From contig NZ_LMOU01000002.1 of NCBI RefSeq assembly GCF_001423615.1, positions 191,573 to 255,572 of the forward strand: 64,000 nt of DNA. Reading direction: 5' to 3'. Source of the stretch: Microbacterium sp. Leaf159 (GTDB taxonomy: Bacteria > Actinomycetota > Actinomycetes > Actinomycetales > Microbacteriaceae). The number at the start of each line of letters is the position of its first letter. Within the stretch, counting starts at the first letter, position 1. Of the stretch, positions 644-34,401 are shown in pieces. Position numbers and translations under genes: made by a program. The notes under the pieces were generated by a model, which worked only from the letters and a program-made list of their open reading frames with translations, made no database searches and was not told the origin of the DNA.

Positions 644-1932
644 CCGAGTTCTCCACGCGTCAGATCCAGGCGGGCTACATCCCGGGTACTCCGCAGAACA
701 GCGCCGTCCCGCCGATCTATCAGACGGCCGCATACGAATTCGCCTCGCTCGCCGACGCCGCAGACCTGTTCGCGCTGCGCACCGCCGGCAACCTGTACAG
801 CCGCAACGCGAGTCCGACCCAGCAGATCCTCGAAGAGCGCATCGCCGCACTCGAGGGCGGGGTGTCGGCGGTGGCCGTGGCGTCAGGGCAGGCGGCGGTC
901 GCCGTGACCCTGCTCGCGCTCGTGGGCCGCGGTGGTCACATCGTCGCCGCCACCCAGCTGTACGGCGGCACGGTCGATCTGCTGCAGGAGACCTTCGACG
1001 ACTTCGGCATCCCGGTGACCTTCGTCGATCAGGACGACCCCGATTCCTGGCGCGCGGCGATCCGGCCCGAGACGCGCGTGCTGTTCGCCGAGTCCATCGC
1101 GAACCCGATCGCCCAGGTCCTCGACATCCGCGCCGTCGCAGACATCGCGCACGAGGCCGGTGTTCCCCTCGTGATCGACAACACGGTCGGCACCCCGTAT
1201 CTGGTGCGACCGGGTGAGCACGGGGCGGACTTCGTGGTGCACTCCGCGACCAAGTTCCTCAGCGGTCACGGCACGTCCCTCGGCGGTGTGGTCGTCGACC
1301 AGGGCACCTTCGACTTCGGCCGCGAGCCCGCACGCTGGCCGCACTTCACCGAGCCCTACGCACGCGTCGGGGACTTCACCCTGTGGGAGCGCTTCGGCAG
1401 CGGTCAGGCGTTCGCGGCGCTCGTGAAGTCGAAGTACGTGCACGACCTCGGCCCCTCGCTCTCGCCGTTCAACGCCTGGCAGATCCTGCAGGGCGTCGAG
1501 ACCCTCGATCTGCGGGTGGCGCGGCAGACCGCCACGGCGCTCGCGCTCGCTGAGCACCTGCAGCGGCATCCGGCGGTCGCGACCGTGCACCATCCCGGGC
1601 TCGAGGGCAACCGCTGGCATCCGCTCGCCCAGCGCTACCTGCCGCGAGGGGGCCCCTCGGTCTTCTCGTTCGACCTCGCCGTCCCCCTGGATGCCGAGAC
1701 CCAGGGCAGCGTCGCGCGTGTGATCGACTCCCTGCGGGTCATCCGTCTGGTGGCGAACATCGGCGACGCGCGCAGCCTCGTGAACCACCCGGCGTCCATG
1801 ACCCATTCGCACCTCACCGCCGAGCAGCGGGCCGCCGCCGGCATCTCGTTCACGACGATCCGGCTGTCTGCGGGGCTCGAAGATCCGGCCGATCTCATCG
1901 CCGACCTCGACCACGCGCTCGCGCTGGTCTGA
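640..1932 (+). CDS. metY: O-acetylhomoserine sulfhydrylase (Cys/Met metabolism PLP enzyme)
   Basis: This 430-residue fold-type I PLP enzyme would catalyse O-acetyl-L-homoserine + sulfide to homocysteine + acetate in the cytoplasm. Visible signs are the Cys/Met-metabolism signature around the PLP lysine ([16 protein letters not shown], about residues 203-218), the upstream cofactor region ([12 protein letters not shown]) and the C-terminal NHPASMTHS motif typical of the gamma family. Its length matches MetY (about 430) better than cystathionine gamma-synthase (about 380-400). The ATG overlaps the previous stop (ATGA), and a monooxygenase gene follows after 14 bases, so the three probably form one operon linked to sulfur acquisition. 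A cystathionine gamma-synthase-like activity cannot be excluded from sequence. Confidence 0.88.
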
Positions 1933-1946
1933 CAGAAGGGGCCATC

Positions 1947-3002
1947 ATGGCAATCGATCTCGGCTACTGGACCCCCGTCTACGGCGGATTCCTCCGCAAC
2001 GTCACCGACGAAGGCCGCATGGCAGCCACCTGGGAGTACATCCGCGAGGTGTCGGTGAAGGCCGACCGGCTCGGCTTCCACACCACGCTCGTGCCGGAGC
2101 TGTACCTCAACGACCGCAAGGGCACCGACGCACCGAGCCTCGAGGCCTGGTCGCTGTCGGCCGCCATCCTCGCCGTCACCGAGCGCCTGCGTGTCATGAC
2201 CGCCGTGCGCCCCGGCTTCCACCTCCCAGCCGTGCTCGCGAAGACCGTAGGGACGCTGGATCAGATCGCCCCTGGTCGCGTCTCCCTCAATGTCGTCGCC
2301 GCGTGGTGGGCCGAGGAGGCCCGACAGTTCGGCGGGCAGTTCACGACCCATGACGAACGCTACGTGCAGGCCGAGGAGTTCGTGACGGTGCTGAACGGCC
2401 TGTGGGAGCAGACGCCGTACTCGTTCCAGGGCTCTCACTACGCCCTCGACGGGACGATCGTCGAACCGAAGCCGTCGAGTCACCCCGTGATCTTCGCCGG
2501 CGGCGAGAGCGAGGCGGGACGCGAGTCGATCGCCGGATTCGCCGATGCCTACGTCATGCACGGCGGCACCCTCGACGAGGTCCGCGCCAACGTGACCGAC
2601 ATGAACGCGCGCTCCGAGCGGCTGCACGGCCGCCCGATCGCCGAGTTCGGCATGCCGGCGTACGTGATCGTCCGAGACACCGAGGCCGAGGCGCGGCGCG
2701 AGCTCGACCGCATCACGACCGTCGACCCCGACTCCCCCGGCTACGCGTCGTTCGAGGAGTTCCAGCGCAACTCGAAACTGTCTCTCGAGCTCACCCGTCG
2801 TGAGTACTCGGTCGGCACCAGGGGTCTCCGCCCGAACCTCGTCGGCACGGCCGAGCAGGTCGCGGAGCGCATCCAGGAGTACGCGGATGCCGGGATCACG
2901 CTGCTGCTGATCCAGGCGTCGCCGCTCGATGAGGAGCTCGAGCGGATCGCCGAGCAGGTCTTCCCTCTCGTGCCGCAGCGCACGCTCGCGGCTCTCGCCT
3001 GA
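1947..3002 (+). CDS. LLM-class FMN-dependent monooxygenase (SsuD/SfnG type)
   Basis: This 351-residue TIM-barrel flavin monooxygenase belongs to the bacterial luciferase-like family. The layout resembles alkanesulfonate (SsuD) and dimethylsulfone (SfnG) monooxygenases: N-terminal YWTPVYGGFL, the flavin-binding stretch RVSLNVVAAWW, HDERYVQAEEF, and the C-terminal NLVGTAEQVAERI. Such enzymes use FMNH2 and O2 to cleave C-S bonds and release sulfite. It sits 14 bases after the homocysteine-forming sulfhydrylase gene, which fits organosulfur scavenging (inference). No dedicated flavin reductase lies next to it; an FMN-reductase-like protein occurs near 22.5 kb but is not adjacent. The exact substrate is not determinable. 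Confidence 0.82.
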   Translation: MAIDLGYWTPVYGGFLRNVTDEGRMAATWEYIREVSVKADRLGFHTTLVPELYLNDRKGTDAPSLEAWSLSAAILAVTERLRVMTAVRPGFHLPAVLAKTVGTLDQIAPGRVSLNVVAAWWAEEARQFGGQFTTHDERYVQAEEFVTVLNGLWEQTPYSFQGSHYALDGTIVEPKPSSHPVIFAGGESEAGRESIAGFADAYVMHGGTLDEVRANVTDMNARSERLHGRPIAEFGMPAYVIVRDTEAEARRELDRITTVDPDSPGYASFEEFQRNSKLSLELTRREYSVGTRGLRPNLVGTAEQVAERIQEYADAGITLLLIQASPLDEELERIAEQVFPLVPQRTLAALA

Positions 3003-3040
3003 TCGTCCCGGCTGTCGGCCGCACCCTCTACGCTGAGACC

Positions 3041-4036
3041 ATGACTGGTCTTCGTTGGGGAATCCTCGCGACCGGCGGCATCGCCGGCGCGTTCGCATCC
3101 GATCTGCGCACCGCCGGGCTCGATCTCGTCGCCGTCGGCTCTCGCTCGCAGGACTCGGCCGACGCCTTCGCGGCCCGCTTCGACATCGCGCACGCGCACC
3201 CCTCGTACGACGCTCTCGTCGCCGACCCCGACGTCGACATCATCTACGTCTCCACGCCGCACCCGATGCACCACGAGGGTGCGCGCCTGGCGCTCGAGGC
3301 CGGCAAGCACGTGCTCGTCGAGAAGGCCTTCACCCTCAACAGGGGCGAGGCGGAAGACCTGCAGCGTCTGGCCGCCGAGCGAGGACTCCTCGCGATGGAG
3401 GCGATGTGGACGCGGTATCTGCCGCACATGGTCCGCATCCGCGAGATCATCGCCGCCGGCACGCTCGGCGAGATCCGTGCCGTGAGCGCCGACCACACGC
3501 AGCTCCTGCCCACCGACCCCGCGCATCGGCTGAACGCGCTCGAGCTCGGCGGCGGCGCGCTGCTCGACCTGGGGATCTACCCGATCTCGTTCGTATGGGA
3601 CATCCTCGGCGCCCCGACCGGCATCCAGTCGGTCGCCCGCCTGATCGAGACCGGCGCTGATGCCGAGGTCGCGACGATCATGACTCACGAGGGAGGCGCC
3701 ATCTCGACCACTCTGTCGTCGTCGCGGGCGGCCGGACCGAACGCCGCGAGCATCATCGGCACGAAGGCGCGCATCGACATCGATCAGGTCTGGTACGCCC
3801 CGACGACGTTCCGCGTGGTCCTTCCCGACGGAACCGTCGCCGAGGAGTACTCCTCCGACGTCGCGGGCCGAGGCATGGAGTACCAGGCGCATGCCGCCGA
3901 GCGACTCGTGAGCGAGGGGCTGCTCGAGGGCGACATCCTGCCGATCGCCGAGAGCGTCGCCATCATGGGCACCCTCGACGAGATCCGCGCCCAGATCGGT
4001 GTGCGGTACCCGGGCGAAGGAGCACACAATGGCTGA
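3041..4036 (+). CDS. Gfo/Idh/MocA family NAD(P)-dependent oxidoreductase
   Basis: A 331-residue protein with an N-terminal Rossmann fold (GILATGGIAGAFASDL, residues 5-20). It has the family's cofactor-side motif STPHPMHHEGA and a variant of the EKP motif (LVEKAFTLN, about residues 95-103). The C-terminal domain has the GGGALLDLGIYPISF stretch found in trans-dihydrodiol/glucose-fructose oxidoreductase relatives. It probably oxidises or reduces a sugar, polyol or related alcohol with NAD(P). It follows the monooxygenase gene after 38 bases, and its last 8 bases overlap the start of the NYN gene, suggesting co-transcription. Substrate unknown. Confidence 0.82.
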   Translation: MTGLRWGILATGGIAGAFASDLRTAGLDLVAVGSRSQDSADAFAARFDIAHAHPSYDALVADPDVDIIYVSTPHPMHHEGARLALEAGKHVLVEKAFTLNRGEAEDLQRLAAERGLLAMEAMWTRYLPHMVRIREIIAAGTLGEIRAVSADHTQLLPTDPAHRLNALELGGGALLDLGIYPISFVWDILGAPTGIQSVARLIETGADAEVATIMTHEGGAISTTLSSSRAAGPNAASIIGTKARIDIDQVWYAPTTFRVVLPDGTVAEEYSSDVAGRGMEYQAHAAERLVSEGLLEGDILPIAESVAIMGTLDEIRAQIGVRYPGEGAHNG

Positions 4037-5006
4037 GGCACACGACGCGCGCGTCGCCGTCTATCTCGACTTCGACAACATCGTCATCTCCTGGTACGAC
4101 CGGGTGCACGGGCGCAACGCCTACGGCAAGGACCGCCAGCGCATCACCGAGAATCCGTCCGACCCCGAGGTCACCGAGCGGCTCTCCCGCGCGATGATCG
4201 AGGTCGGCGCGATCATCGACTATGCCGCCTCGTTCGGCACGCTCGTGCTCACCCGCGCCTACGCCGACTGGTCGTCACCGGTGAACGCGGTGTACCGCTC
4301 GCAGCTCGTCGCGCGTGCGGTCGACCTCGTGCAGCTGTTCCCCGCTGCGGCCTATGCGAAGAACGGCGCAGACATCCGTCTGGCCGTCGATGCCGTCGAG
4401 GACATGTTCCGTCTGCCCGACCTCACGCACGTCGTGATCGTCGCCGGAGACAGCGACTACGTGCCGCTCGCGCAGCGCTGCAAGCGTCTGGGTCGCTACG
4501 TCATCGGCGTCGGCGTCGCCGGTTCCACCGCCAAGTCGCTGGCCGCCGCGTGCGACGAGTTCGAGGCCTACGACTCGCTTCCGGGCGTCGTGCGACCGAC
4601 CAAGGCCACAGCCCCCGCCCCCGCGGCCGTGGAGGTCCCCGAGCCGGTCGCCGAGCCCGAGCCCGCCGTGAAGGCCAAGTCCAGGCAGCCGGCCAAGACC
4701 GCCAAGGCGAAGGCCGCTGCCGCGGCGCCGTCGAAGGTCGACGAGCAGGGCGACGGCACCGAGCAGGGCGAGGCGACCGAACTGCTGCAGCGCGCCCTGC
4801 GACTGGGCCACGACAAGACCGACGCCGACGAGTGGCTGCACAGCTCGGCCGTGAAGACCCACATGCGACGTATGGATCCGTCGTTCAGCGAGAAGGCCCT
4901 CGGCTACCGTTCGTTCTCGGACTTCCTGAAGTCGCGTGAGAACATCGCCGAGCTCGAGGAGACCGGGCACGAACGCCTGGTGAAGCTGCGCGACTCGGCC
5001 TCCTGA
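4029..5006 (+). CDS. NYN-domain RNase-like protein with C-terminal OST-HTH/LOTUS domain
   Basis: The ATG at 4029 follows GAAGGAGCACACA and gives 325 residues beginning MAEAHDARVAVYLDFDNIV. An upstream in-frame start at 3999 would lie deep in the previous gene and is less likely. Residues about 8-180 form a NYN (PIN-like) domain with acidic positions DFDN, DIRLAVDAVEDM and VIVAGDSDYVPLA, as in metal-dependent ribonucleases. An Ala/Pro/Lys-rich linker follows (about 190-235). The tail (ELLQRALRLGHDK to FSDFLKSRENI) matches the OST-HTH/LOTUS winged-helix RNA-binding domain. The domain pair suggests an RNA-binding endoribonuclease in RNA surveillance; that role is inference. Confidence 0.85.
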   Translation: MAEAHDARVAVYLDFDNIVISWYDRVHGRNAYGKDRQRITENPSDPEVTERLSRAMIEVGAIIDYAASFGTLVLTRAYADWSSPVNAVYRSQLVARAVDLVQLFPAAAYAKNGADIRLAVDAVEDMFRLPDLTHVVIVAGDSDYVPLAQRCKRLGRYVIGVGVAGSTAKSLAAACDEFEAYDSLPGVVRPTKATAPAPAAVEVPEPVAEPEPAVKAKSRQPAKTAKAKAAAAAPSKVDEQGDGTEQGEATELLQRALRLGHDKTDADEWLHSSAVKTHMRRMDPSFSEKALGYRSFSDFLKSRENIAELEETGHERLVKLRDSAS

Positions 5007-5028
5007 CCGAGGTCACGGCTCGCACCGC

Positions 5029-5322
5029 TCACTCCTCGAAGTCGTACTCCTGGAATGCCGCGACTTCCGGCACCCACCGCTCCGACACGAACGCGGAGTG
5101 CGCGGGGTGCTCGTTGTACGCCCGGTAGGCACCGACGTCCTGGAACACCATCGAGAACTGGTGCTCCAGGTCGCTCTTCGGACTCACCTGCCTGCGGATC
5201 GCGAAGTCCTCGACCCCGGGGATCGAGGTGAGCACCGCGCGGCCGGTGGCCAGGAACTCGCGTTCCTCTGCCGAACCGGCCTCGTGGACCAGGCGGAAGA
5301 CGACGGTGTGCTGGATGGTCAT
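5029..5322 (-). CDS. Stress-responsive A/B-barrel (Dabb) domain protein
   Basis: A 97-residue protein with the dimeric alpha-beta barrel pattern: N-terminal [15 protein letters not shown], a central [16 protein letters not shown] and a final strand near EYDFEE. Dabb proteins are small cytoplasmic dimers; some are enzymes or binding partners in sugar and aromatic catabolic clusters. The ATG overlaps the stop of the sugar isomerase gene (ATGA at 5319-5322), so it is the last gene of the sugar operon transcribed from about 13.3 kb down. Function in this pathway is unknown. Confidence 0.82.
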
Positions 5323-6344
5323 GGGGTGGCTCCGGTCTCCTGGTTGCTGAAGGCGGCATCGAAGGATGCCGTGGGCGCGGGCCACAGCAGCGACCGCACG
5401 TAGTGGAGGGCTTCGGGTGCGCCGTGCAGCCGATCCATACCGGCATCCTCCCACTCGATCGAGATGGGTCCGGCGTAGCCGATCGCCTCGAGCGCGCGGA
5501 ACGCGTCCTCCCACGGCACATCGCCGTGACCCGTCGAGACGAAGTCCCAGCCGCGGCGCGGGTCGCCCCACGGCAGATGCGAGCCGAGCACCCCGGCGCG
5601 ACCGTTGTGCGGGCGCATCCGGGTGTCCTTGCAGTCCACGTGGTAGATGCGGTCGGCGAAGTCGACGATGAACCCGACCGGATCGATGTTCTGCCACATC
5701 ATGTGCGACGGGTCCCAGTTGAAGCCGAACGCCCCACGGTGTTCGATCGCCTCGAGCGCGCGCACCGACGACCAGTAGTCGTAGGCGATCTCGCCAGGGT
5801 GCACCTCGTGGGCGAAGCGCACGCCCTCGCCGTCGAACACGTCGAGGATCGGGTTCCAGCGCGCGGCGAAGTCCTCGAATCCGCCCTCGATCACCGATGC
5901 GGGCACCGGCGGGAACATCGCCAGATACGGCCAGATCGACGAACCGGTGAACCCGACGACCGTGTCGACGCCGAGCTTGCGCGCCACCCGCGCCGCCCGT
6001 TTCATGTCGTCCGCTGCACGCGTGCGCACACCCTCGGCATCGCCGTCTCCCCACACGTACTCGCGCAGGATCGCCTGATGACGGAAGTCGATCGGCGCAT
6101 CGCAGACGGCTTGACCGGCGAGGTGGTTCGAGATCGCGAAGATCTTCAGCCCGTGTCGATCGAGGATCTCGAGTCGTGACGCGACGTAGGCGTCGTCCTC
6201 GTCGGCCCGCCGCAGATCGAGGTGATCGCCCGAGGCCGCCACCTCGAGGCCGTCGTACCCCCAGTCGGCCGCGAGCCGAGCCACCTCCTCGAACGGCAGG
6301 TCGGCCCACTGCCCGGTGAACAGCGTGACGGGATGGGTGGTCAT
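5319..6344 (-). CDS. Sugar phosphate isomerase/epimerase family TIM-barrel protein
   Basis: The ATG at 6344 has a GGAGTG ribosome site and gives 341 residues ([20 protein letters not shown]). The sequence is a xylose-isomerase-like TIM barrel: [16 protein letters not shown] near the N-terminus, metal-binding acids in [35 protein letters not shown] and [11 protein letters not shown]. Such enzymes isomerise or epimerise free or modified sugars, inositols or keto-sugars using a divalent metal. It lies between another epimerase and the Dabb gene in the same operon. It resembles relatives found beside Gfo/Idh/MocA dehydrogenases that act on 3-keto or inositol-type substrates; the actual substrate is not known. 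Confidence 0.83.
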
Positions 6345-6372
6345 GGACACTCCTTCGTATCGCGTGACGGTG

Positions 6373-7224
6373 TCAGGCGCCGAGCGTCCTGAGCGCATGG
6401 ATGCTGCGGCGGGCGAGCTCGTCCTGACTCGGTGCGAGAGGACGCCAGACGGATGCGGCGACCGCGATCGTCGCGTTCTCGCCGGTGAAGCTCTCGAGGC
6501 CGAGCGGTCCGCGGTAGCCGGCATGGTCGAGAGCCCTCAGCATCTCCGGCCAGTCGGTGTGGTCATCGCCGACCGCTCCCCGATCGCTGCCGCACACCTG
6601 CACGTGAGCGATCGACGAGCCCGCGGCCCGGACGGCGTCGGCGGGCCTCTTCTCCTCGATGTTGAGGTGGTAGGTGTCGAGCGCGAGCCCGACGCCGGCG
6701 CCGAGCAGCGGTTCGAGCGCATCCAGGCTCTGCTCGACCGTGTTCAGCACGCTGGTCTCGTACCGATTGAGCGGCTCGATCGCCAGCGCGATGCCCCTGG
6801 ATGCGGCCTCCTCGGCCACGGGGTGGAGATTCTCGCGCAACTCGCGCACGACCTCCGTGCGCTCGTCGGGCGTCATCCGCCAGGTCACTCCGGTCGGTGC
6901 GTAGAAGGGGCCGGCGACGACATCCGACCCGAGCGTGACAGCCGCGTCGATGCACGATCGCAGGTAGTCCTGCGTCCCGGCCACGTCTCCCGCTCTCGCG
7001 AGCAGAGACCTGCCGGGGCCCATGGCCCCGACGACGATCGCTCCGAGGCCGAGTCCGTCCAGCACCTCGCGGGTGCGCCCAGGATTCCAGTCGCCGACGT
7101 TCTCGAGCGGCAGCTCCAGCGCCTGGTAGCCCATCCCGGCGGCCTTCCGCGCGAGGGGCTCGAGCGTCGCATCGGTGAGTGGAGAGGTCCACACCCACGT
7201 GTTGACGGCGATCGTGCGAGGCAT
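6373..7224 (-). CDS. Sugar epimerase of the D-tagatose/D-psicose 3-epimerase type
   Basis: The start at 7224 has a strong upstream GAAGGAGCAGG, giving 283 residues ([16 protein letters not shown]). Family hallmarks of ketose 3-epimerases are visible: [18 protein letters not shown] with the catalytic Glu, [13 protein letters not shown] with the metal-binding Asp and His, and [10 protein letters not shown] near the C-terminus. These enzymes epimerise C3 of free ketoses using Mn2+ or Co2+. Length fits the family (about 280-300). The gene is in the sugar operon between the solute-binding protein gene and a second isomerase. The preferred sugar cannot be read from sequence. Confidence 0.83.
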
Positions 7225-7250
7225 CCTGCTCCTTCGGGGATGACGCGTGT

Positions 7251-7296
7251 GCTCCCACCCTCCCATCCGCGGACGTGCGGAGGGAAGGGCGGGAGC
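7251..7296 (-). terminator. Possible stem-loop after the transporter genes
   Basis: In the gap between the binding-protein gene and the epimerase gene, GCTCCC (7251-7256) can pair with GGGAGC (7291-7296), with further C/G-rich pairing inside. There is no T-run on the minus strand. It could be a processing or partial termination site that lowers expression of the enzymes relative to the transporter, or be chance pairing in GC-rich DNA. Confidence 0.25.
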
Positions 7297-7307
7297 GTCA
7301 CTGCGGG

Positions 7308-8516
7308 TTACGGGATCTGACGTTCCTGCCACACCGTCGGGTAGCCGGGAAGGTTCTCCCCGCCGAACTTGGCGTAGTGCCCGTCGGGCATTCCGTCATT
7401 CGCCTCGAGGTAGTCGTCGAGCTCCGCCTCGGTGATCGGCTTCTGCGGCAGCACCCACTCCTTCGGCACCTCTTCACCTGCGAAGACCATCTGCGCGGCG
7501 AGCAGCGGCGTGCGCCACTGGAAGTTCGAGTACACCGGCGCGAGACCCGTGAGACCCGTCTCCTTCCACTTGCGCAGGAAGCTCATCTCGTCCTCGCCGG
7601 TCATGACCGGGTAGTCGGCACCGGCATCCTCGAATGCCTCGATCGCCGCGACCGCGCCGTCACCGGCATCCATCCAGATGCCCTGCACGTCGCCCTTGGC
7701 GAGCTCGTCGCTGATGATGCTCTTGATCTCGGCGGGGTCGGCACCCGTGAAGTAGTCCACGGCCTCGATGCCCGCCTCGTCGAAGAGCTTCTCGGCGGCG
7801 GCCCACCGGTGCTCGAGCACGTCGACACCCGGAAGGATGCGCAGGGCCACGACCTTGTCACCCTCTTCGAGGTTGTCGATGAGGAACTCGGCGGTGTCGA
7901 TGCCCCACGCGAATCCGCCGATGGGGTGGATGAACGTGACGGGGCAGTCGGTGTTCACGCCGCGGTCGAACACGATGACCGGCTTGCCGGTCTCGCACGC
8001 GCGCTCGACCGCCGGAGTCATCGCCGCCGTGCTGTTCGGCGAGATGAGGAAGACGTCGCAGCCGCCCTCGGCGATGAAGTAGTCGATGTCGGCGATCTGC
8101 GTGTCATCGGAGTCCTGCGCGTCACGCGTCTCCATCTCGCTGATCGCTCCGGCCTCCTGCAGCGACTTGAGCTGCTCGTTCATCGTGATCCAGCCGGTCT
8201 GGCGCCACGGGTTCGAGATCGACGCGTTCGCGAAGCAGGCCTTCTTGGCTCCCTCGCTCGTGAACGCGGACGTGTCGACCATCTCGGCGTTGATGTGCTG
8301 GAGGTACGGCTCGTCTGCCGGGCCCTGCGGCTCGACGCCACGTTCTTCCATCTGCTTGTCGAAGAGCTCCTGGTCGAACCACTCGGTGGTCTCGGCGGAT
8401 TCGTCGGGACTGTCGGATTCGGCCGGCGCCACGGACGGGTCTGTCGTACACCCGGCGAGCGCGATGAGGCCGAAGAGAGCCACCCCTGCGGTGGCGATCC
8501 TCATTGATCGTCGCAT
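7308..8516 (-). CDS. ABC sugar importer, solute-binding lipoprotein
   Basis: A 402-residue periplasmic-binding-protein type 1 (ribose-like) protein. The N-terminus is a lipoprotein signal: MRRSMRIA, then a hydrophobic stretch ending LIALAGC with the lipobox Cys at about residue 23, followed by an acidic linker. Later segments (GKPVIVFDRGVNTD, VQGIWMDAGDGAVAAIEAFEDAG) match sugar-binding proteins of the RbsB/XylF group. The start is supported by AGAGGAG seven bases upstream. It should capture the sugar outside the membrane and hand it to the two permeases encoded just upstream. It is longer than RbsB because of the linker and C-terminal extension. Confidence 0.87.
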   Translation of the reverse strand: MRRSMRIATAGVALFGLIALAGCTTDPSVAPAESDSPDESAETTEWFDQELFDKQMEERGVEPQGPADEPYLQHINAEMVDTSAFTSEGAKKACFANASISNPWRQTGWITMNEQLKSLQEAGAISEMETRDAQDSDDTQIADIDYFIAEGGCDVFLISPNSTAAMTPAVERACETGKPVIVFDRGVNTDCPVTFIHPIGGFAWGIDTAEFLIDNLEEGDKVVALRILPGVDVLEHRWAAAEKLFDEAGIEAVDYFTGADPAEIKSIISDELAKGDVQGIWMDAGDGAVAAIEAFEDAGADYPVMTGEDEMSFLRKWKETGLTGLAPVYSNFQWRTPLLAAQMVFAGEEVPKEWVLPQKPITEAELDDYLEANDGMPDGHYAKFGGENLPGYPTVWQERQIP

Positions 8517-28148: not shown

Positions 28149-29036
28149 CTAGAGGCGTTCCGCGAACTCCTTGAGCCACGGCCGCAGCTCGGGGCCGAGG
28201 TCGTCACGGTCGGAGGCGAGCTGGACGATCGCCTTGATGTAGTCGACGCGGTCGCCGGTGTCGTACCGTCGACCGCGGAAGATCACGCCGACGACGCCAG
28301 GACCCTCGGGTCGGGTCGCCAGCTCCTGCAGGGCATCCGTGAGCTGGATCTCGCCGCCCTTGCCGGGCTGGGTGTGCTCGAGCACATCGAAGATCGACGC
28401 GGGCAGGACATAGCGCCCGATGATCGCGAGGTTCGAGGGTGCGTCCTCCTGCGCGGGCTTCTCGACGAGGCCCGTCACGCGCACGGAGTCGGAACCGTCG
28501 ATCTCCTCGACGGCGGCGGCGCCGTACATGTGGATGTTCGCCGGGTCGACCTCCATGAGGGCGATCACCGCGGCGCCGCTGCGCTCGTGCTCTGCGATCA
28601 TCTCGGTGAGCAGCGGGTCGCGCTCGTCGATGAGGTCGTCGCCGAGGAGCACGGCGAACGAGCTGTCGCCGACGTGAGTGCGTGCCCGCAGTACGGCGTG
28701 GCCGAGACCCTTGGGCTCGCCCTGGCGGACGAAGTGGATGTCGGCGAGATCGCTCGAATGGATGACGCGCTCGAGACGGCCGGTGTCACCCTTCTCCATG
28801 AGCTTGACCTCGAGCTCGGGCACCGAATCGAAGTGGTTCGAGATCGCGTTCTTGTTGCGGCCGATGATGACGAGGATGTCCTCGATCCCGGCGCTCGCGG
28901 CCTCTTCGACCACATACTGGATGGCCGGCTTGTCGACGACCGGCAGCATCTCCTTCGGCATCGCCTTCGTCGCGGGCAGGAATCGCGTCCCCAGTCCTGC
29001 GGCGGGAATGACGGCCTTCATCTTCTTGGAACCCAT
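28149..29036 (-). CDS. galU: UTP-glucose-1-phosphate uridylyltransferase
   Basis: The ATG at 29036 gives 295 residues (MGSKKMKAVIPAAGLGTRFL); a GTG two codons earlier is also possible. The nucleotidyltransferase motif AVIPAAGLGTRFLPATKAMPKEMLP (split here as AVIPAAGLGTRF and LPATKAMPKEMLP) binds UTP. Further marks are FVRQGEPKGLGHAVL and VTGLVEKPAQEDAPSNLAI. It makes UDP-glucose for cell-wall and exopolysaccharide precursors. It is divergent from the formyl-THF cyclo-ligase gene across 40 bases; a TAGGCT box close to the start suggests a leaderless transcript. Confidence 0.95.
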   Translation of the reverse strand: MGSKKMKAVIPAAGLGTRFLPATKAMPKEMLPVVDKPAIQYVVEEAASAGIEDILVIIGRNKNAISNHFDSVPELEVKLMEKGDTGRLERVIHSSDLADIHFVRQGEPKGLGHAVLRARTHVGDSSFAVLLGDDLIDERDPLLTEMIAEHERSGAAVIALMEVDPANIHMYGAAAVEEIDGSDSVRVTGLVEKPAQEDAPSNLAIIGRYVLPASIFDVLEHTQPGKGGEIQLTDALQELATRPEGPGVVGVIFRGRRYDTGDRVDYIKAIVQLASDRDDLGPELRPWLKEFAERL

Positions 29037-29076
29037 CCTCACAGCCTAGCCGGGATGCCGCCGTAGACTCGGAGGC

Positions 29077-29673
29077 ATGTCCCACGACATCGAGCACGAG
29101 AAGCGCGCGCTGCGCGCAGAGCTCCGCGAACGCCGCCAGCTGCTCAGCGACTCGCAGCGCGAGAACGCCGCAGCCGCCATCACGCAGCGTCTGGACGACC
29201 TCGTCGAGTCGCTCGGAGCACAGTCGATCTCGTGCTTCCTCTCCACGACGACAGAACCGGGCACCCGCGAGTTCGTGACCGCCGCGGTGCGCCGCGGCAT
29301 CCGTGTCCTGCTCCCCGTCACGCGCGCTGACGGCCTGCTCGACTGGGCCGTCGCGACCGACGGTGACGACGTCGCCGAGGGTCTGTTCGGACTGCCCGAG
29401 CCGACCGGCGAGGTGCTGGGTCCGATCGCCGTCAACGACGTCGACCTGATGGTGATCCCCGCCGCGGCCGTCGACCGCACCGGGATGCGCATGGGCTGGG
29501 GCCGCGGCTATTTCGACAAGACCATCGGATCGATGGAGAAGTGCCCGCCCGTCTACGCGGTCATCTATGATTCCGAGGTACTCGACTTCCTTCCGCGGGA
29601 GGTCCACGACCAGCCGGTCACCGGCGTCGTGACCCCCACGCAGACCCTTCTCCTGTCGCAGTCGCGACGCTGA
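29077..29673 (+). CDS. 5-formyltetrahydrofolate cyclo-ligase
   Basis: A 198-residue enzyme that converts 5-formyl-THF to 5,10-methenyl-THF using ATP. It has the family signature MRMGWGRGYFDKT (about residues 142-154), the N-terminal helix KRALRAELRERRQLLS, and PAAAVDRTG before the signature. Length is usual for the family. It is followed 17 bases later by a zinc-ribbon gene and then mscL, a gene order often seen in actinobacteria. Confidence 0.93.
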   Translation: MSHDIEHEKRALRAELRERRQLLSDSQRENAAAAITQRLDDLVESLGAQSISCFLSTTTEPGTREFVTAAVRRGIRVLLPVTRADGLLDWAVATDGDDVAEGLFGLPEPTGEVLGPIAVNDVDLMVIPAAAVDRTGMRMGWGRGYFDKTIGSMEKCPPVYAVIYDSEVLDFLPREVHDQPVTGVVTPTQTLLLSQSRR

Positions 29674-29690: not shown

Positions 29691-29963
29691 ATGCCCACCT
29701 ATGCCTATGCCTGCCGTTCCTGCGGCCACTCCTTCGACGCCGTGCAGAGCTTCTCCGACGACGCCCTGACCGTCTGCCCCGAGTGCGGCGGCGAGCTGCG
29801 TAAGCAGTACGGATCCATCGGCGTGACGTTCAACGGATCCGGCTTCTATCGCACCGACTCGCGGTCGGGTGCTGGCTCTTCGGCATCCACCCCGGCATCA
29901 TCGAAGTCGGAGCCGACGAAGAGCGCCACCCCGGCACCCGCGTCGAGCACCACCACTTCCTGA
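29691..29963 (+). CDS. FmdB-family zinc-ribbon protein
   Basis: A 90-residue protein whose first 55 residues are a zinc ribbon: MPTYAYACRSCGHSFD with CxxC, and TVCPECGGELRKQYG with the second CxxC, as in the FmdB regulatory-protein family. The tail (GSGAGSSASTPASSKSE) is a Ser/Thr/Pro/Ala-rich disordered extension. It lies between the cyclo-ligase and mscL genes; function unknown. Confidence 0.87.
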   Translation: MPTYAYACRSCGHSFDAVQSFSDDALTVCPECGGELRKQYGSIGVTFNGSGFYRTDSRSGAGSSASTPASSKSEPTKSATPAPASSTTTS

Positions 29964-29989: not shown

Positions 29990-30412
29990 ATGCTCAAAGG
30001 TTTCAAGGACTTCATCCTCCGCGGCAATGTCATCGACCTGGCTGTCGCGGTCGTCATCGGCACCGCGTTCACGGCCATCGTCACCGCCGTGGTCAACAGC
30101 ATCATCACCCCGCTCGTCTCCCTGTTCTTCAAGGCCGACGCGGCCGGCAACTTCGGACCGCAGCTGACGAGCCTCTACGGGGATCAGGTCACGTTCCCGA
30201 TCGGCGACCTGATCTCGGCGATCATCAGCTTCCTCTCGGTCGCTCTGGTCGTGTACTTCGTCTTCGTCCTGCCGATGAACACGTTCAAGGCCCATGTCGA
30301 GGCTCGCAAGGGCACCGCCGCAGAAGAGCCCGCCGAAGAGCCGGCCGCCGCGACCGAGGCCGAGCTGCTCGTCGAGATCCGCGACCTGCTCGCACAAAAC
30401 GCCCGCAGCTGA
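29990..30412 (+). CDS. mscL: Large-conductance mechanosensitive channel
   Basis: A 140-residue inner membrane protein forming a pentameric channel that opens under hypo-osmotic stress. N-terminal LKGFKDFILRGNVIDLAVAVVIGTAF matches the MscL S1 helix and TM1 signature (shown as GFKDFILRGNVIDLAVAVV), and the second helix is ISAIISFLSVALVVYFVFVL. The C-terminal helical bundle is acidic (AEEPAEEPAAATEAELLVEI). A GGAGGTTCCC ribosome site precedes the ATG. A strong terminator follows. Confidence 0.96.
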   Translation: MLKGFKDFILRGNVIDLAVAVVIGTAFTAIVTAVVNSIITPLVSLFFKADAAGNFGPQLTSLYGDQVTFPIGDLISAIISFLSVALVVYFVFVLPMNTFKAHVEARKGTAAEEPAEEPAAATEAELLVEIRDLLAQNARS

Positions 30413-30429: not shown

Positions 30430-30466
30430 ACGAAGCGCACGGTCCCGTCGGGGCCGTGCGCTTCGT
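30430..30466. terminator. Bidirectional terminator between mscL and the small coupled gene
   Basis: ACGAAGCGCACGG (30430-30442) pairs perfectly with CCGTGCGCTTCGT (30454-30466) around an 11-base loop. It lies 17 bases after the mscL stop and 10 bases beyond the end of the convergent small gene. Confidence 0.85.
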
Positions 30467-30476
30467 CGTATCCGCC

Positions 30477-30689
30477 TCAGTAGTGGGGCGGGACGTCCTG
30501 CATCAGCCGGTCGTCGTTGGGCCCCTTCGGTCCCTTCGGCGCGCGAGGGGGCGCAGTGATCGGCTTCTGAGTCGCTGCCGTCTCCGGGTCGGTGTCCGTG
30601 CCGGGGACGGGGGTCAGCCGCGCGCGGCGAGATCCCGGAACCCGCACGACCTTCTGCCGCGGGCCACTCGGGTCGGGCTGATCAGTCAT
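30477..30689 (-). CDS. Small Pro/Lys-rich protein coupled to the helicase-like gene
   Basis: A 70-residue protein (MTDQPDPSGPRQKVVRVPGS) with a basic, Pro-rich body and a distinctive end KGPKGPNDDRLMQDVPPHY. No signal, membrane segment or known domain. Its ATG overlaps the last 8 bases of the helicase-like gene, so it is translationally coupled to it. Functional linkage to that protein is likely but unproven. Confidence 0.65.
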   Translation of the reverse strand: MTDQPDPSGPRQKVVRVPGSRRARLTPVPGTDTDPETAATQKPITAPPRAPKGPKGPNDDRLMQDVPPHY

Positions 30690-33600
30690 TCTGCGGATCG
30701 ATGAGATCGATCGGCTGCGTGTCGTTCTCGGCGCGGACGGCGGACGCCGAGATGCCGAGGACCTCGGCGATGCGGGCAGCCGCAGTCACGGGATCGCTGT
30801 AGAGGTCGAAGGCGTGCACGCGGACGTAGTGCCAGCCGAGTCGGCGCAGCACGTGCGGGCGCAGGCGCAGCGTCTCGCGCAGAGACTCACCTCGCGACTC
30901 GGGGTCGGACTCGATCACGACGGCCTTGCCCTTGTGCTGGGCGACGAGCGGCAGGAGACCGCGGTAGTCGACGTCCACGGCCGCGCCCAGGCGGCGCAGC
31001 TCGCGCGCGAGCGCGAGGGTGAGCGGATCGGCGAGATCCTCGAGGCGTGCCTCGCGCCCCCGGGAGGCCAGGCCGCCGAGGATCGACATCAGCGTGGCTG
31101 CACCGAACTCGAGGCGGCCGTCGTCGAACGAGGACGGCCTGATCGACGAGACGATGACCATCGAGCGGCGCGCCCTGGTCATGCCGACCGTGAGCAGCCG
31201 CTCGCCGTCAGGCGTCGACAGATCGCCGAAGTCGCTGAGGACGCGGCCGTGCTTGGTGAGACCGAATCCGAGAGAGAAGATCACGCGGTCACGACTCTCG
31301 GCGACGGACTCTTCGAGCGTCAGCACCGCGAAGGGCTCGGCGGTGTCGCGTCCGACGAAGTCTGCGACGTCGGAACGTCCGGCGAACGCCGATGTGACGG
31401 CGGCGCGCACACGCTCGGCGTGGCGCCTGCTGGCGGTGACGACCATGAGCGACTCGTCCGGGCGGTGCACGGCGTGCTCGACGACCAGGGTGACGACACG
31501 GGCGACCTCCGCATCCGGACTCTCCACCGCTCCTGAGACGGGGTCCGGGGCTCCGGTACCGCCTTCGACGTAGTCGACGGTGAGGCTGCCGCGGCCCAGA
31601 TACGATCCTGCCCACGGCAGGGAGACGATCTCGCCGCCGTAGAACGCGTCGTTGATGAGCTCGGCGAGATCCTCGCCGCCGGCCCTGTAGCTGCGCGTGA
31701 GCGTCATCACCGGGAGCAGCTCCGACAGCCGCTCGAACACCGAGACCGTGTCGAAAGGAACCTCGTGCTCCCACTCGGCGCCGGGGTCGACGGCGACGTG
31801 GAACGGGGTGGGGAGCTGCGTGACCGGGTCGCCGAACGCCACGATCTGGCGCGCACGGCGGATGGCCGGCGCGGCCTCCGCGAGGTTGATCGCGGCCGCG
31901 TCGACGAGGAGCACCGCATCGAATTCGACAGAATCGGGGATGTGCGGAACGAGGTAGGGCGACGAGATCCACACGGGCGCCAGCACGTCGACGAGGGTGG
32001 GCGCTGCACTCACGATCTCGGCGGTCGTCGTGGCAGGCTGCTTCAGCGCGCGGCGCAGGTTCTGCGACTCCTGCGGCTCGTCGACGATCGCGATCCCCCA
32101 CTGGTTCGCGAGCTGCCAAGCGAGCAGCGGGCCCGCCATCGCCGCGTGCGCCTCGTCGACGAGACGGAAGTCGCGCTCGAGTCGGTCGACCACCGCGGTG
32201 TTCGCTCCCAGAAGGGCGCGGTCGTCCTGCAGTGCCCGCTCGAGCAGCGTCTGCCACCACGCGAACTCCAGCTCGTCGCCCACGCGGGCCTCGGAGACAT
32301 GGCGCACGGAGAGCTCCGCGAGCAGAGGTTCGAGCCCCAGATCGGCGAGGCGGTCGCGCAGCTGAGCGCGCTCGACGAGGTTGTCGAAGACGTCGGACTT
32401 GGCCGCGAGGCCCGCCAGGGTGCGCACGAGTCGCTCGACGGGCAGGGTCGAGAGCGGCTCCCTGCGACCGAGAGCGACATCGAGCTCGGCGAGCTCCGCC
32501 GTCACCCGCTGCCAGGAGGAGTAGACGTCGGCGAGACCGAGCGGGACCTCGGGAGCCACACCCGCCTCCACGCAGCGCTGCCACTGGGTGCGCTGCGCCT
32601 GGATGCGGAGCAGCGACTCGTGCATCTCGGTGACGTGCACGCCCGGGCGTACGTACTCCTTGGCGAGACGACGAAGACGTCGCCGGTTCGCACCCGACAT
32701 GTTGGGTGCATCGCGTCGGGAGCCGTGCGCCTGGATCAGCTCGCCCAGGGGACGCTCGAACACGGTCGGGCTGAATCGATCGAGGGAGTCGCGGATGCCC
32801 TGCAGCAGTCGCAGGTACTCGCCGAGCTCGTCGATGGTCGAGAACGGACGCATGTGCGTCTGCGCGATGAGGGCGTAGCCGCGCTCGAGCAGTGCCGGGA
32901 CGCTGTCGGAGTGCAGTCGTCCCGCGAGCTGATGAGCGGACTTGGCGGCCTCGGTGCTCGAGAACGTGACCCCGTACCAGGGCGAGTCGTTCGGCCCGAA
33001 GCGGAACTCGCCCAGACGAGCCGCGTACGCGAGGGCAGCCGCTGCCGAGGACCGGTCGTCGGCCAGGCGGCGCAGGGTCTCGATGCTCAGCCGTGCGGTG
33101 GTCGACGGGGGCGTGGGCAGCGACGCGAGCCGGGTGAGGTGACGCGTGGCGTCGAGGACCGACGAGGCGGTTCCCGCGACGGGAGTGGTGAGCGCCTGAC
33201 GATAGTCGCGCAGCACGGTGCGCAGCCGCACGAGGGCGTCATCGACGTCGCCCACCTTGGGTGCCGTGGCTTTCTCGTTGCGTCCGATCGCTCGCACGAG
33301 ATCGCGACGGACGCTCGCGGGAGAGACAGCCAGGCTGTCGAGTCCGATGCCGGCCAGACGATGCCGCACGCCGTCGAGCGTCGAGCGCCGCGCAGACACG
33401 ACAAGCACGCGCTTGCCGTTGCGCACCAGCTCGCCGAGCGCGTTGATCACGGTCTGCGTGCCACCGGTGCCGGGGAGCGTCGCGACCGTGAGGGAATGTC
33501 CCGCGGCGATCTTGGCGAGCAGCGCCTCCTGCTCGCCATCCGCGTCCAGCAGGAGGTTGTCGGATGCCGGCGCGCGGTCGTCCGGGCCGGTGTGGTGCGG

Positions 33601-34401
33601 TTCGGGCCTGCGCGCCGAGACCTGCTCGCGGTCGCCGACATGCCCGGCGAGCGCATTGAGCACGATGTGGTCGAGGCTGCCGCCGTCGCGCGCCATCGCA
33701 CCGCCCACGTCCGCGAACGTCGAGACCACGAGCCTCGGCAGCACAGTGAAGGTGTCGATCGATCGCGTGGTCGCTCGGAGGCTGTCGATCACGGGCTGCG
33801 GCTTGAAGATCCCGCCGTCGTAGGCGAGCGAGGCGAGCGCTGCGGCATCGATCGTGATGCCGAAGTGCTCACGCGCGATGCGCACCAGCTCGGGGTTGAC
33901 CTCGAAGGCCCCCTGCAGCTTGAGCTCGAAGTCGGTGTGGTGGCGACGGATCGCGAGCGGGCGGAGCAGGACGGGCGCCGCGAAGTCAGCGCCGCCGATG
34001 CGCCATCCCGCGACGCCTACGGCGAGATGCACCGCCTCGATGCCGCGAACCGTGCGCAGCTCCGTGTTCTTCGCCGTGATCCGCTCCGCCGCGAGCCGAG
34101 CCGTCCGAAGGCCGACCTCATCGCGGAAGAGGTTCGACAGGAGAGTGGATTTTCCGGTGATGAACTGGGGGAGGCTGCCCGGGTGCGCCTTGGAGATGTC
34201 GATGCCCGATTCGACCGTGTCGCGGAATGTCACGAGGGGCGAGGATCCGCCGAGGTCGGCGGCTTCGGCGCGCAGACGTGTGCGCTCGGCCTCTGCGGCG
34301 TGGGCGATCCCGAAGCCGACGACGGGCTCGGGCGACGCACTCAGGGTCGCTGAGGCATCGGTCGCTGCATCATCCGCAGCCTTGCCTTCACGTCGCCACA
34401 C
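30682..34401 (-). CDS. Large SF1 helicase-like protein with degenerate ATPase motifs and REase-like C-terminus
   Basis: A 1239-residue protein from a GTG at 34401. The region from about residue 300 to 1090 follows the superfamily-1 (Upf1/DUF4011-type) order. Walker A is LPGTGGTQT (near 310), where GPPGTGKT is expected, so the Lys is replaced. Walker B is VLLVDAAAIN (near 830) instead of a DE box. Motif III FGDPVTQLP, a later TRSYRAGGEDLAELI, TLEESVAESRDRVIFS and LLTVGMTRARRSMVIVSS are still recognisable. The last 110 residues (VVIESDPESRGESLRETLRL, VLRRLGWHYVRVHAFDLYSD) resemble the REase_MTES_1575/Vsr-like nuclease fold, with some catalytic positions changed. The motifs suggest lost ATP hydrolysis but a retained scaffold. 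A small coupled gene follows, and a Cys-less MGMT homologue is divergent. Confidence 0.8.
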   Translation of the reverse strand: MWRREGKAADDAATDASATLSASPEPVVGFGIAHAAEAERTRLRAEAADLGGSSPLVTFRDTVESGIDISKAHPGSLPQFITGKSTLLSNLFRDEVGLRTARLAAERITAKNTELRTVRGIEAVHLAVGVAGWRIGGADFAAPVLLRPLAIRRHHTDFELKLQGAFEVNPELVRIAREHFGITIDAAALASLAYDGGIFKPQPVIDSLRATTRSIDTFTVLPRLVVSTFADVGGAMARDGGSLDHIVLNALAGHVGDREQVSARRPEPHHTGPDDRAPASDNLLLDADGEQEALLAKIAAGHSLTVATLPGTGGTQTVINALGELVRNGKRVLVVSARRSTLDGVRHRLAGIGLDSLAVSPASVRRDLVRAIGRNEKATAPKVGDVDDALVRLRTVLRDYRQALTTPVAGTASSVLDATRHLTRLASLPTPPSTTARLSIETLRRLADDRSSAAAALAYAARLGEFRFGPNDSPWYGVTFSSTEAAKSAHQLAGRLHSDSVPALLERGYALIAQTHMRPFSTIDELGEYLRLLQGIRDSLDRFSPTVFERPLGELIQAHGSRRDAPNMSGANRRRLRRLAKEYVRPGVHVTEMHESLLRIQAQRTQWQRCVEAGVAPEVPLGLADVYSSWQRVTAELAELDVALGRREPLSTLPVERLVRTLAGLAAKSDVFDNLVERAQLRDRLADLGLEPLLAELSVRHVSEARVGDELEFAWWQTLLERALQDDRALLGANTAVVDRLERDFRLVDEAHAAMAGPLLAWQLANQWGIAIVDEPQESQNLRRALKQPATTTAEIVSAAPTLVDVLAPVWISSPYLVPHIPDSVEFDAVLLVDAAAINLAEAAPAIRRARQIVAFGDPVTQLPTPFHVAVDPGAEWEHEVPFDTVSVFERLSELLPVMTLTRSYRAGGEDLAELINDAFYGGEIVSLPWAGSYLGRGSLTVDYVEGGTGAPDPVSGAVESPDAEVARVVTLVVEHAVHRPDESLMVVTASRRHAERVRAAVTSAFAGRSDVADFVGRDTAEPFAVLTLEESVAESRDRVIFSLGFGLTKHGRVLSDFGDLSTPDGERLLTVGMTRARRSMVIVSSIRPSSFDDGRLEFGAATLMSILGGLASRGREARLEDLADPLTLALARELRRLGAAVDVDYRGLLPLVAQHKGKAVVIESDPESRGESLRETLRLRPHVLRRLGWHYVRVHAFDLYSDPVTAAARIAEVLGISASAVRAENDTQPIDLIDPQND

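Follow-up and report, generated by a model that had tools for sequence, protein, structure and literature searches.

The closest described systems to the gene pair considered here are the anti-phage models ProA, Hhe and PDC-S37, the superfamily-1 (SF1) helicases Upf1, IGHMBP2 and Dna2, and the Vsr-fold nucleases of the MTES_1575 type (PF18741). MTES_1575 itself is reported to reach at least residue 2161 and to carry HEPN and transglutaminase parts (PMC3710099). According to a further report (PMC10250203), every Pseudomonas aeruginosa isolate has a large DUF4011 gene that flanks a defence hotspot, so that core status alone has a precedent, although at another locus and in another phylum. The window analysed here, a stretch of 64,000 nucleotides from Microbacterium sp. 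Leaf159 (contig NZ_LMOU01000002.1, positions 191,573 to 255,572), encodes a 1239-aa pseudo-helicase-nuclease and, overlapping its end, a 70-aa micro-protein. What appears to be new in this pair is that a DUF4011 SF1-Vsr protein occurs as a core pseudoenzyme, and that it has an unnamed micro-protein as partner.

The best family matches of the large protein are ProA (NF058533; 3.8e-82) and Hhe (NF042953; 2.6e-42) in NCBIfam, and it also matches PDC-S37 in PADLOC (1.6e-85); the likeness runs across the helical insertion, the second helicase half and the C-terminus, the DUF4011 likeness of the N-terminus being sub-threshold. There are nevertheless clear differences: the three models are longer (1550-1911 positions) and, unlike ProA and Hhe, the window protein has altered motifs and occupies a near-fixed core locus. 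Nor is it MTES_1575, which is larger and has the HEPN and transglutaminase parts. The features on which the comparison turns are these:

30682..34401, minus strand: 1239-aa pseudo-helicase-nuclease, GTG start, uninterrupted frame
33436..33474, minus strand: altered P-loop, residues 310-322 (LPGTGGTQTVINA), with Gly315 at the Lys position
31873..31911, minus strand: altered Walker B, residues 831-843 (VLLVDAAAINLAE), with DE replaced by VD
30895..30963, minus strand: altered nuclease core, residues 1147-1169 (YRGLLPLVAQHKGKAVVIESDPE), with Pro1152 for the first Asp and E-x-D kept
30477..30689, minus strand: 70-aa micro-protein ending GPNDDRLMQDVPPHY, its ATG overlapping the large gene's end by 8 nt

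Helicase fold and altered catalytic residues

The large protein is laid out as a DUF4011-like N-terminus, an SF1 core of the Upf1/Dna2 type with a large helical insertion, and a Vsr/MTES_1575-like C-terminus. A structure model that covers residues 41-1239 and was computed from 43 aligned sequences (mean predicted local distance difference test score, pLDDT, 86.4; predicted template modelling score, pTM, 0.74), predicts the two-RecA-domain SF1B fold, and the nearest folds (Foldseek, VIA-align 2) are SF1B helicases: IGHMBP2 (Z 21.2, 485 residues, root-mean-square deviation 5.5), Dna2 (Z 19.7, 504 residues, 4.8) and Upf1 (Z 19.1), that is, Z of about 19-21 over about 480-505 residues. On this model the protein folds like the SF1 helicases Upf1 and Dna2 and ends in a Vsr-like domain, which bears out the SF1 scaffold proposed in an initial annotation made from the DNA alone. 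Of the SF1 motifs, GDPVTQ, SYR and TRAR are all present. A sequence search of solved structures returned one match (E 0.63), which is irrelevant, and Pfam gave sub-threshold matches alone, to MTES_1575, AAA_12 and DUF4011.

In the counts that follow, family and congeneric refer to Microbacteriaceae and Microbacterium, and order, for named loci, to Micrococcales by NCBI naming. The order sample held 58 genomes from 20 families (the window's own genome and 57 others; 35 of the same genus, counting its own) and the family draw 60 genomes, one per genus, own included. Aligned rows comprise 34 congeneric open frames of 35 (G016, split over contigs, was left out), 60 loci, not all of them complete, from 59 other genera of the family, 24 other-family rows and 80 named loci.

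Both Walker motifs have lost the residues that drive the motor. The P-loop reads LPGTGGTQT, as initially quoted, in place of GxxxxGK[ST], and its Lys column holds Gly in 34/34 congeneric rows; among the 60 other-genus rows it holds G in 40, A in 7, S in 3, L, V and Y in 2 each and R and I in 1 each, 2 being uncovered, so that Lys is absent without exception from the 58 covered rows. It is found in 3/24 other-family rows (1 uncovered) and 7/80 named rows, 10/195 covered rows overall, and counted by family in the order sample the P-loop is altered in 18/20 and intact in two (f5 and f18). Walker B reads VLLVDAAAIN, again as quoted. A gapless alignment to intact orthologues (VVxFDEASQ) places VD where these have DE, so that the Asp which binds Mg is gone and the Glu position is taken by Asp. 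The DE pair is missing from all 34 congeneric rows (AD in 21, VD in 13) and from 59/59 covered other-genus rows, and is present in the same numbers as the Lys, 3/24 and 7/80. Motif V has VAESRD, against QGDERD in intact rows, and so lacks QG. The window protein thus shares its core fold with Upf1, IGHMBP2 and Dna2, but not the P-loop Lys, the DE pair or the motif V QG. Other helicase residues persist: 34/34 congeneric rows retain the motif III Gln as well as the Arg residues of motif IV and motif VI. Altogether about 50 charged-residue differences separate 21 altered family sequences from 9 intact ones, the losses including the P-loop K (315), the Walker B D (834), a K at 1028 and the nuclease D (1152). 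Since both Walker alterations recur in all 34 congeneric rows, a chance origin is excluded, and the same losses across relatives rule out a change specific to the window copy.

The nuclease-like lobe has been weakened as well. The initial annotation's MTES_1575/Vsr-like C-terminus survives as a weak match (residues 1153-1214 to PF18741, 22.9 bits against the Pfam gathering cut-off of 38.2), but below that cut-off and with the first catalytic-type Asp replaced, a change that the initial annotation had not noted. In a local realignment, from which rows without the segment were excluded (2/60 other-genus, 3/24 other-family and 7/80 named), P stands in its place in 34/34 congeneric rows, while 58/58 aligned other-genus rows have G, A, P, T or R; the Asp is kept in 10/21 other-family, 64/73 named and 9/10 intact rows (one has Glu). 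As in MTES_1575-type nucleases, E-x-D is kept (congeneric Glu 32/34, Asp 34/34) and it is retained in most family rows, so the congeneric proteins have part of the catalytic D...ExD set. Arthrobacter-type rows have lost the motor residues and kept these nuclease residues.

Conservation, locus and intact orthologues

The altered gene is under purifying selection. The ratio of nonsynonymous to synonymous substitution rates (dN/dS, NG86), taken between the window gene and the 12 nearest of the 33 other congeneric rows, is 0.055-0.200 for the whole gene and 0.031-0.185 for the P-loop segment 281-400; these values are rough, with dS at 0.71-1.00, and they increase with distance. Over 67 family sequences, the 12-residue P-loop window lies at the 99.3rd percentile of conservation, its P, G, G, T, Q and T residues reaching 0.99-1.00 and T313 0.91, while the Lys position is the most variable of the P-loop core (Gly 0.73); the loop is therefore held while the catalytic Lys stays out. 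The helix that follows the nuclease core lies at the 99.8th percentile. The view that the frame is maintained and not decaying is thus upheld: losses of the Lys and of DE that are conserved under purifying selection are what the initial annotation had named as support for it. Recent decay is ruled out by the long open frames, the dN/dS values and the presence of a match in 60/60 family genera. The gene likewise has a match in 58/58 order-sample genomes, own included, and a single one in its own genome; one of the family genomes is only 0.93 Mb in size. In that genome (L115) the large gene is kept, its P-loop has drifted further (PGAQVTQA) and no PPH[WYF] terminus was found downstream.

The gene belongs to a shared locus, whose other members lie downstream of the helicase in the order mscL, fmdB, 5-formyl-THF cyclo-ligase, galU (names assigned from the sequences; mscL and the SAF gene next to it are also so named in an Actinomyces oris annotation):

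30431..30465, no strand assigned: 16-bp stem with one G-T pair, 3-nt loop and no T-run, read from the sequence
29990..30412, plus strand: mscL, the convergent neighbour that marks the locus
29691-29963: fmdB, on the other side of mscL from the micro-protein gene
29077-29673: 5-formyl-THF cyclo-ligase
28149-29042: galU

Among loci with enough flank, at least one of these genes lies within 4 kb in 34/34 congeneric, 52/56 other-genus, 17/20 other-family and 75/75 named cases, and mscL, where detected, converges with the helicase in 34/34, 42/42, 9/10 and 11/11, respectively. The stem lies where the micro-protein gene and mscL converge, between their 3' ends, and is probably a shared bidirectional terminator, judging from its sequence; a T-run-based terminator scan did not report it.

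Versions with an intact motor occur at the same place: the locus is shared by 9/9 intact copies, which overlap the other-family and named sets, and by 0/4 of the Hhe-like paralogues, so intact and altered versions are positional orthologues. The ten intact rows (L034-L036, L123-L128 and L135) include, among the named loci, Phycicoccus (two), Knoellia, Pedococcus, Leekyejoonella, a Dermatophilaceae metagenome-assembled genome (MAG) and an unclassified Actinomycetes MAG; the remaining intact rows cluster together and with these in trees. Among the genomes sampled, intact positional orthologues are restricted to Intrasporangiaceae/Dermatophilaceae/Dermacoccaceae-type genomes. Intact homologues in close relatives would have spoken against the initial annotation: none sits at the locus within the family, but other families of the order do have them. 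The four Hhe-like paralogues, all with intact GKS and DEASQ, sit elsewhere, with neither the micro-protein nor mscL. One congener (L057) has both the silent gene and an intact Hhe-like paralogue (932-7519; a 2196-aa open frame with GKS and DEASQ), the latter at another locus and without the micro-protein.

With the Hhe-like proteins and other intact ones set as the outside, two quick trees, supported by SH-aLRT alone and unrooted in principle, place the intact clade next to the order's altered clade. A class-wide draw added three genomes from one family outside the order (L215-L217) with Arg at the P-loop Lys position, DD or ED in Walker B, and the micro-protein and mscL/fmdB adjoining. This version suggests that the motor was lost a second time, independently, but support for its placement is moderate (93 and 85).

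A plasmid or phage origin was considered and set aside. There was one weak phage match, and although 337 plasmid records matched, just one of them covers 80% of the query (3 records examined): an Actinomyces oris record (NZ_CP116225.1, L261) with the same locus layout, in which Walker B reads LDAST, the peptide ends RRDVPPHWG and the annotation gives 'DNA helicase' and 'hypothetical protein' adjoining mscL. Because its arrangement helicase-hypothetical-mscL-SAF is of the chromosomal type, this record may be a chromosomal piece. Two plasmid-borne relatives from Pseudomonadota have intact GKS and DEAS motifs. A contig labelled as an Acidobacteria MAG (L176) carries an Arthrobacter-like version of the locus and is probably misbinned.

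The 70-aa micro-protein

The initial annotation had coupled the large protein to a basic 70-aa partner. The coupling itself holds well. We scored a PPH[WYF] motif no more than 13 residues from a stop, either within 900 nt downstream of the gene or at the helicase C-terminus; of 203 loci, 7 with less than 300 nt downstream were dropped, and the terminus was found in 187/196, against 2/587 (same strand) and 0/587 (other strand) control windows of 960 nt inside helicase genes. A chance open reading frame is thereby ruled out, although some loci are near-duplicates, many of them from Arthrobacter, and the counts are therefore not independent events. In 63 loci the terminus is in frame at the helicase C-terminus, a natural fusion that occurs with intact as well as silent helicases, and in 124 it is separate. 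The nine loci without the motif are L033, L049, L095, L111, L115, L129, L152, L213 and L214; in L033 and L152 it is present, with a longer tail.

The nature of the partner differs from the first description, since its conserved part is the acidic/aromatic C-terminus and not the basic body. Read by eye, the consensus is roughly [DE]D-x-D-x-x-WG[DE] ... [ND][DH]-x-x-[LW]-x-x-[EDQ]-x-PPHW; neither Pfam nor NCBIfam gave a match for the window peptide or for the small number of other peptides searched. Some fused tails of Sinomonas (L180:10132-10269 and L182:10273-10410) lie near an RGxRRxTVPGTGP stretch that resembles the N-terminal half of the window micro-protein (RVPGSRRARLTPVPGT), possibly a second short motif. 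The micro-protein is real, but it is also class-wide and mostly occurs apart from this helicase gene: a peptide profile (E <= 1e-3) has matches in 44/60 genomes of the class, and in 7 of these 60 helicase and peptide stand side by side or fused. Twenty peptide stretches fetched for their PPH[WYFH] terminus (L241-L260) have mscL and/or fmdB nearby in 13/20 and the helicase in none, so a partner exclusive to the helicase is ruled out. The genes upstream of these twenty vary, and by eye CBS-domain-like proteins are among them in L251 and L256.

A proposed nucleic-acid-binding scaffold and its alternatives

The reading that we prefer, at a probability of roughly 0.48, is that the large protein, a core pseudo-helicase-nuclease, serves as a scaffold that binds nucleic acid and that the peptide forms its docking tail. 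An SF1 helicase-nuclease of the DUF4011 kind, with anti-phage relatives, would have become fixed next to mscL as part of the order's core genome; its ATPase would then have been switched off in most families while the fold was kept. The protein would now bind nucleic acid without translocating, its two RecA-like domains and nuclease-like lobe holding a DNA or RNA end or junction, and the Lys-less P-loop could still fit a nucleotide or a backbone phosphate without hydrolysing it. The conserved PPHW/PPHY tail, which comes in trans from the coupled micro-protein or in cis where the two are fused, may recruit a further factor: an acidic tail with a PPHW tip could dock a third protein, much as other acidic C-terminal docking tails do, single-stranded DNA-binding protein (SSB) being an example. 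Such a role would work by analogy with RecC of RecBCD, a subunit of helicase/nuclease fold that is no longer catalytic and is kept for structure and recognition. The likeness would be one of function, with no membership claimed by sequence or structure: RecC was not among the 50 structural matches listed, which does not exclude it, and no RecB- or RecD-like gene was noticed beside the operon, where no search aimed at RecBCD partners was made. What was once an enzyme now seems to serve the cell as a core component without catalytic activity.

Several observations weigh against the scaffold with a docking tail. Conservation is lower at the other altered sites than at the P-loop, with the Walker B window just at the 77.9th percentile and the nuclease core down at the 19.1th. 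In the family, Ser replaces the first Arg of motif VI in three members (L110, L116 and L121), of which L116 and L121 come from genomes of 1.4-1.5 Mb. Drift has reached the P-loop itself in several other families (for example PPGSDV and PAGAPV), where it is no longer recognisable; this fits lost nucleotide binding rather than a sensor. Most class genomes that carry the micro-protein have it without the helicase, so that it must do something else in them. Lastly, the tail is unstructured in a model of a natural fusion (pLDDT <50), so docking in cis is not predicted; such low confidence would be neutral on docking to another protein.

How much of the nucleotide site is left bears directly on the alternatives. 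The protein could be a nucleotide-gated switch, which binds ATP or another nucleotide without hydrolysis and changes its contacts in the bound state. Consistent with this, the Lys-less P-loop is largely kept in the family, with the Mg-ligand Thr in 57/58 covered other-genus rows, and these rows retain the motif III Gln (52/59), the motif IV Arg (59/59) and both motif VI Arg residues (56/59 and 59/59). Yet the Walker B Asp is gone besides the Lys, a joint loss that normally abolishes Mg-nucleotide binding, the drift of the whole P-loop in other families is hard to square with a switch, and candidates for a basic residue that would make up for the lost Lys, such as R277 and R904, come from sequence comparison; we regard the switch as possible but unlikely. 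The same conserved P-loop scaffold could alternatively serve a residual enzyme that hydrolyses nucleotides or cuts nucleic acid through a non-canonical site, and the kept E-x-D argues in that direction, as does the first nuclease Asp of the 64/73 named rows, which are mostly Arthrobacter-type rows without the P-loop Lys. The window protein, in contrast, lacks the Lys, the Walker B Asp, the motif V QG and the first nuclease Asp, which makes remaining catalysis a poor prospect.

Descent from an immune enzyme, suggested by the ProA, Hhe and PDC-S37 matches and by the plasmid-borne relatives with intact motors (2/2 with motif output), raises the question of whether the protein is still an immune one, akin to Hhe/ProA defence, that senses phage or acts as an effector scaffold and has become fixed in the order. 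The NCBIfam scores are far under the curated equivalog cut-offs (276.6 of 1500 bits for ProA and 144.5 of 2000 for Hhe). Defence genes are expected to be patchy, whereas this gene is present in all sampled family and order genomes, reduced ones too, and mostly at one locus, so that a continuing immune role appears improbable, if somewhat less so than residual catalysis. The long branches and drifting motifs of several families might also be read as a slowly decaying relic with no present function; this is largely refuted by the constraint on the gene, by long open frames in copies not cut by contig ends and by its presence throughout the family genera, and we give it almost no credence. The initial annotation, which had envisaged a non-hydrolysing clamp or an evolved repair or defence regulator, is thus partly supported.

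More tentatively, the scaffold could be placed in a wider setting, in which an order-wide core pseudo-helicase-nuclease, derived from an immune-type enzyme and silenced at its active sites, works together with the PPHW micro-protein, itself spread across the class, in a nucleic-acid pathway common to actinobacteria. The motor would have been lost at least once, and twice if the Lys-to-Arg change of the second order is separate. Among the papers listed by our literature search, none dealt with the pseudo-helicase or the micro-protein, judging by titles and abstract openings. The natural series from intact to silent at one locus makes the role of a helicase after motor loss testable, with the intact orthologues as controls, and the micro-protein stands for an unnamed family that is class-wide, often lies beside mscL and, in several families, has had its tail joined to the helicase by fusion. 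Should growth prove to depend notably on the pair, it would represent a core machine of actinobacteria on which no paper was found in the literature searched.

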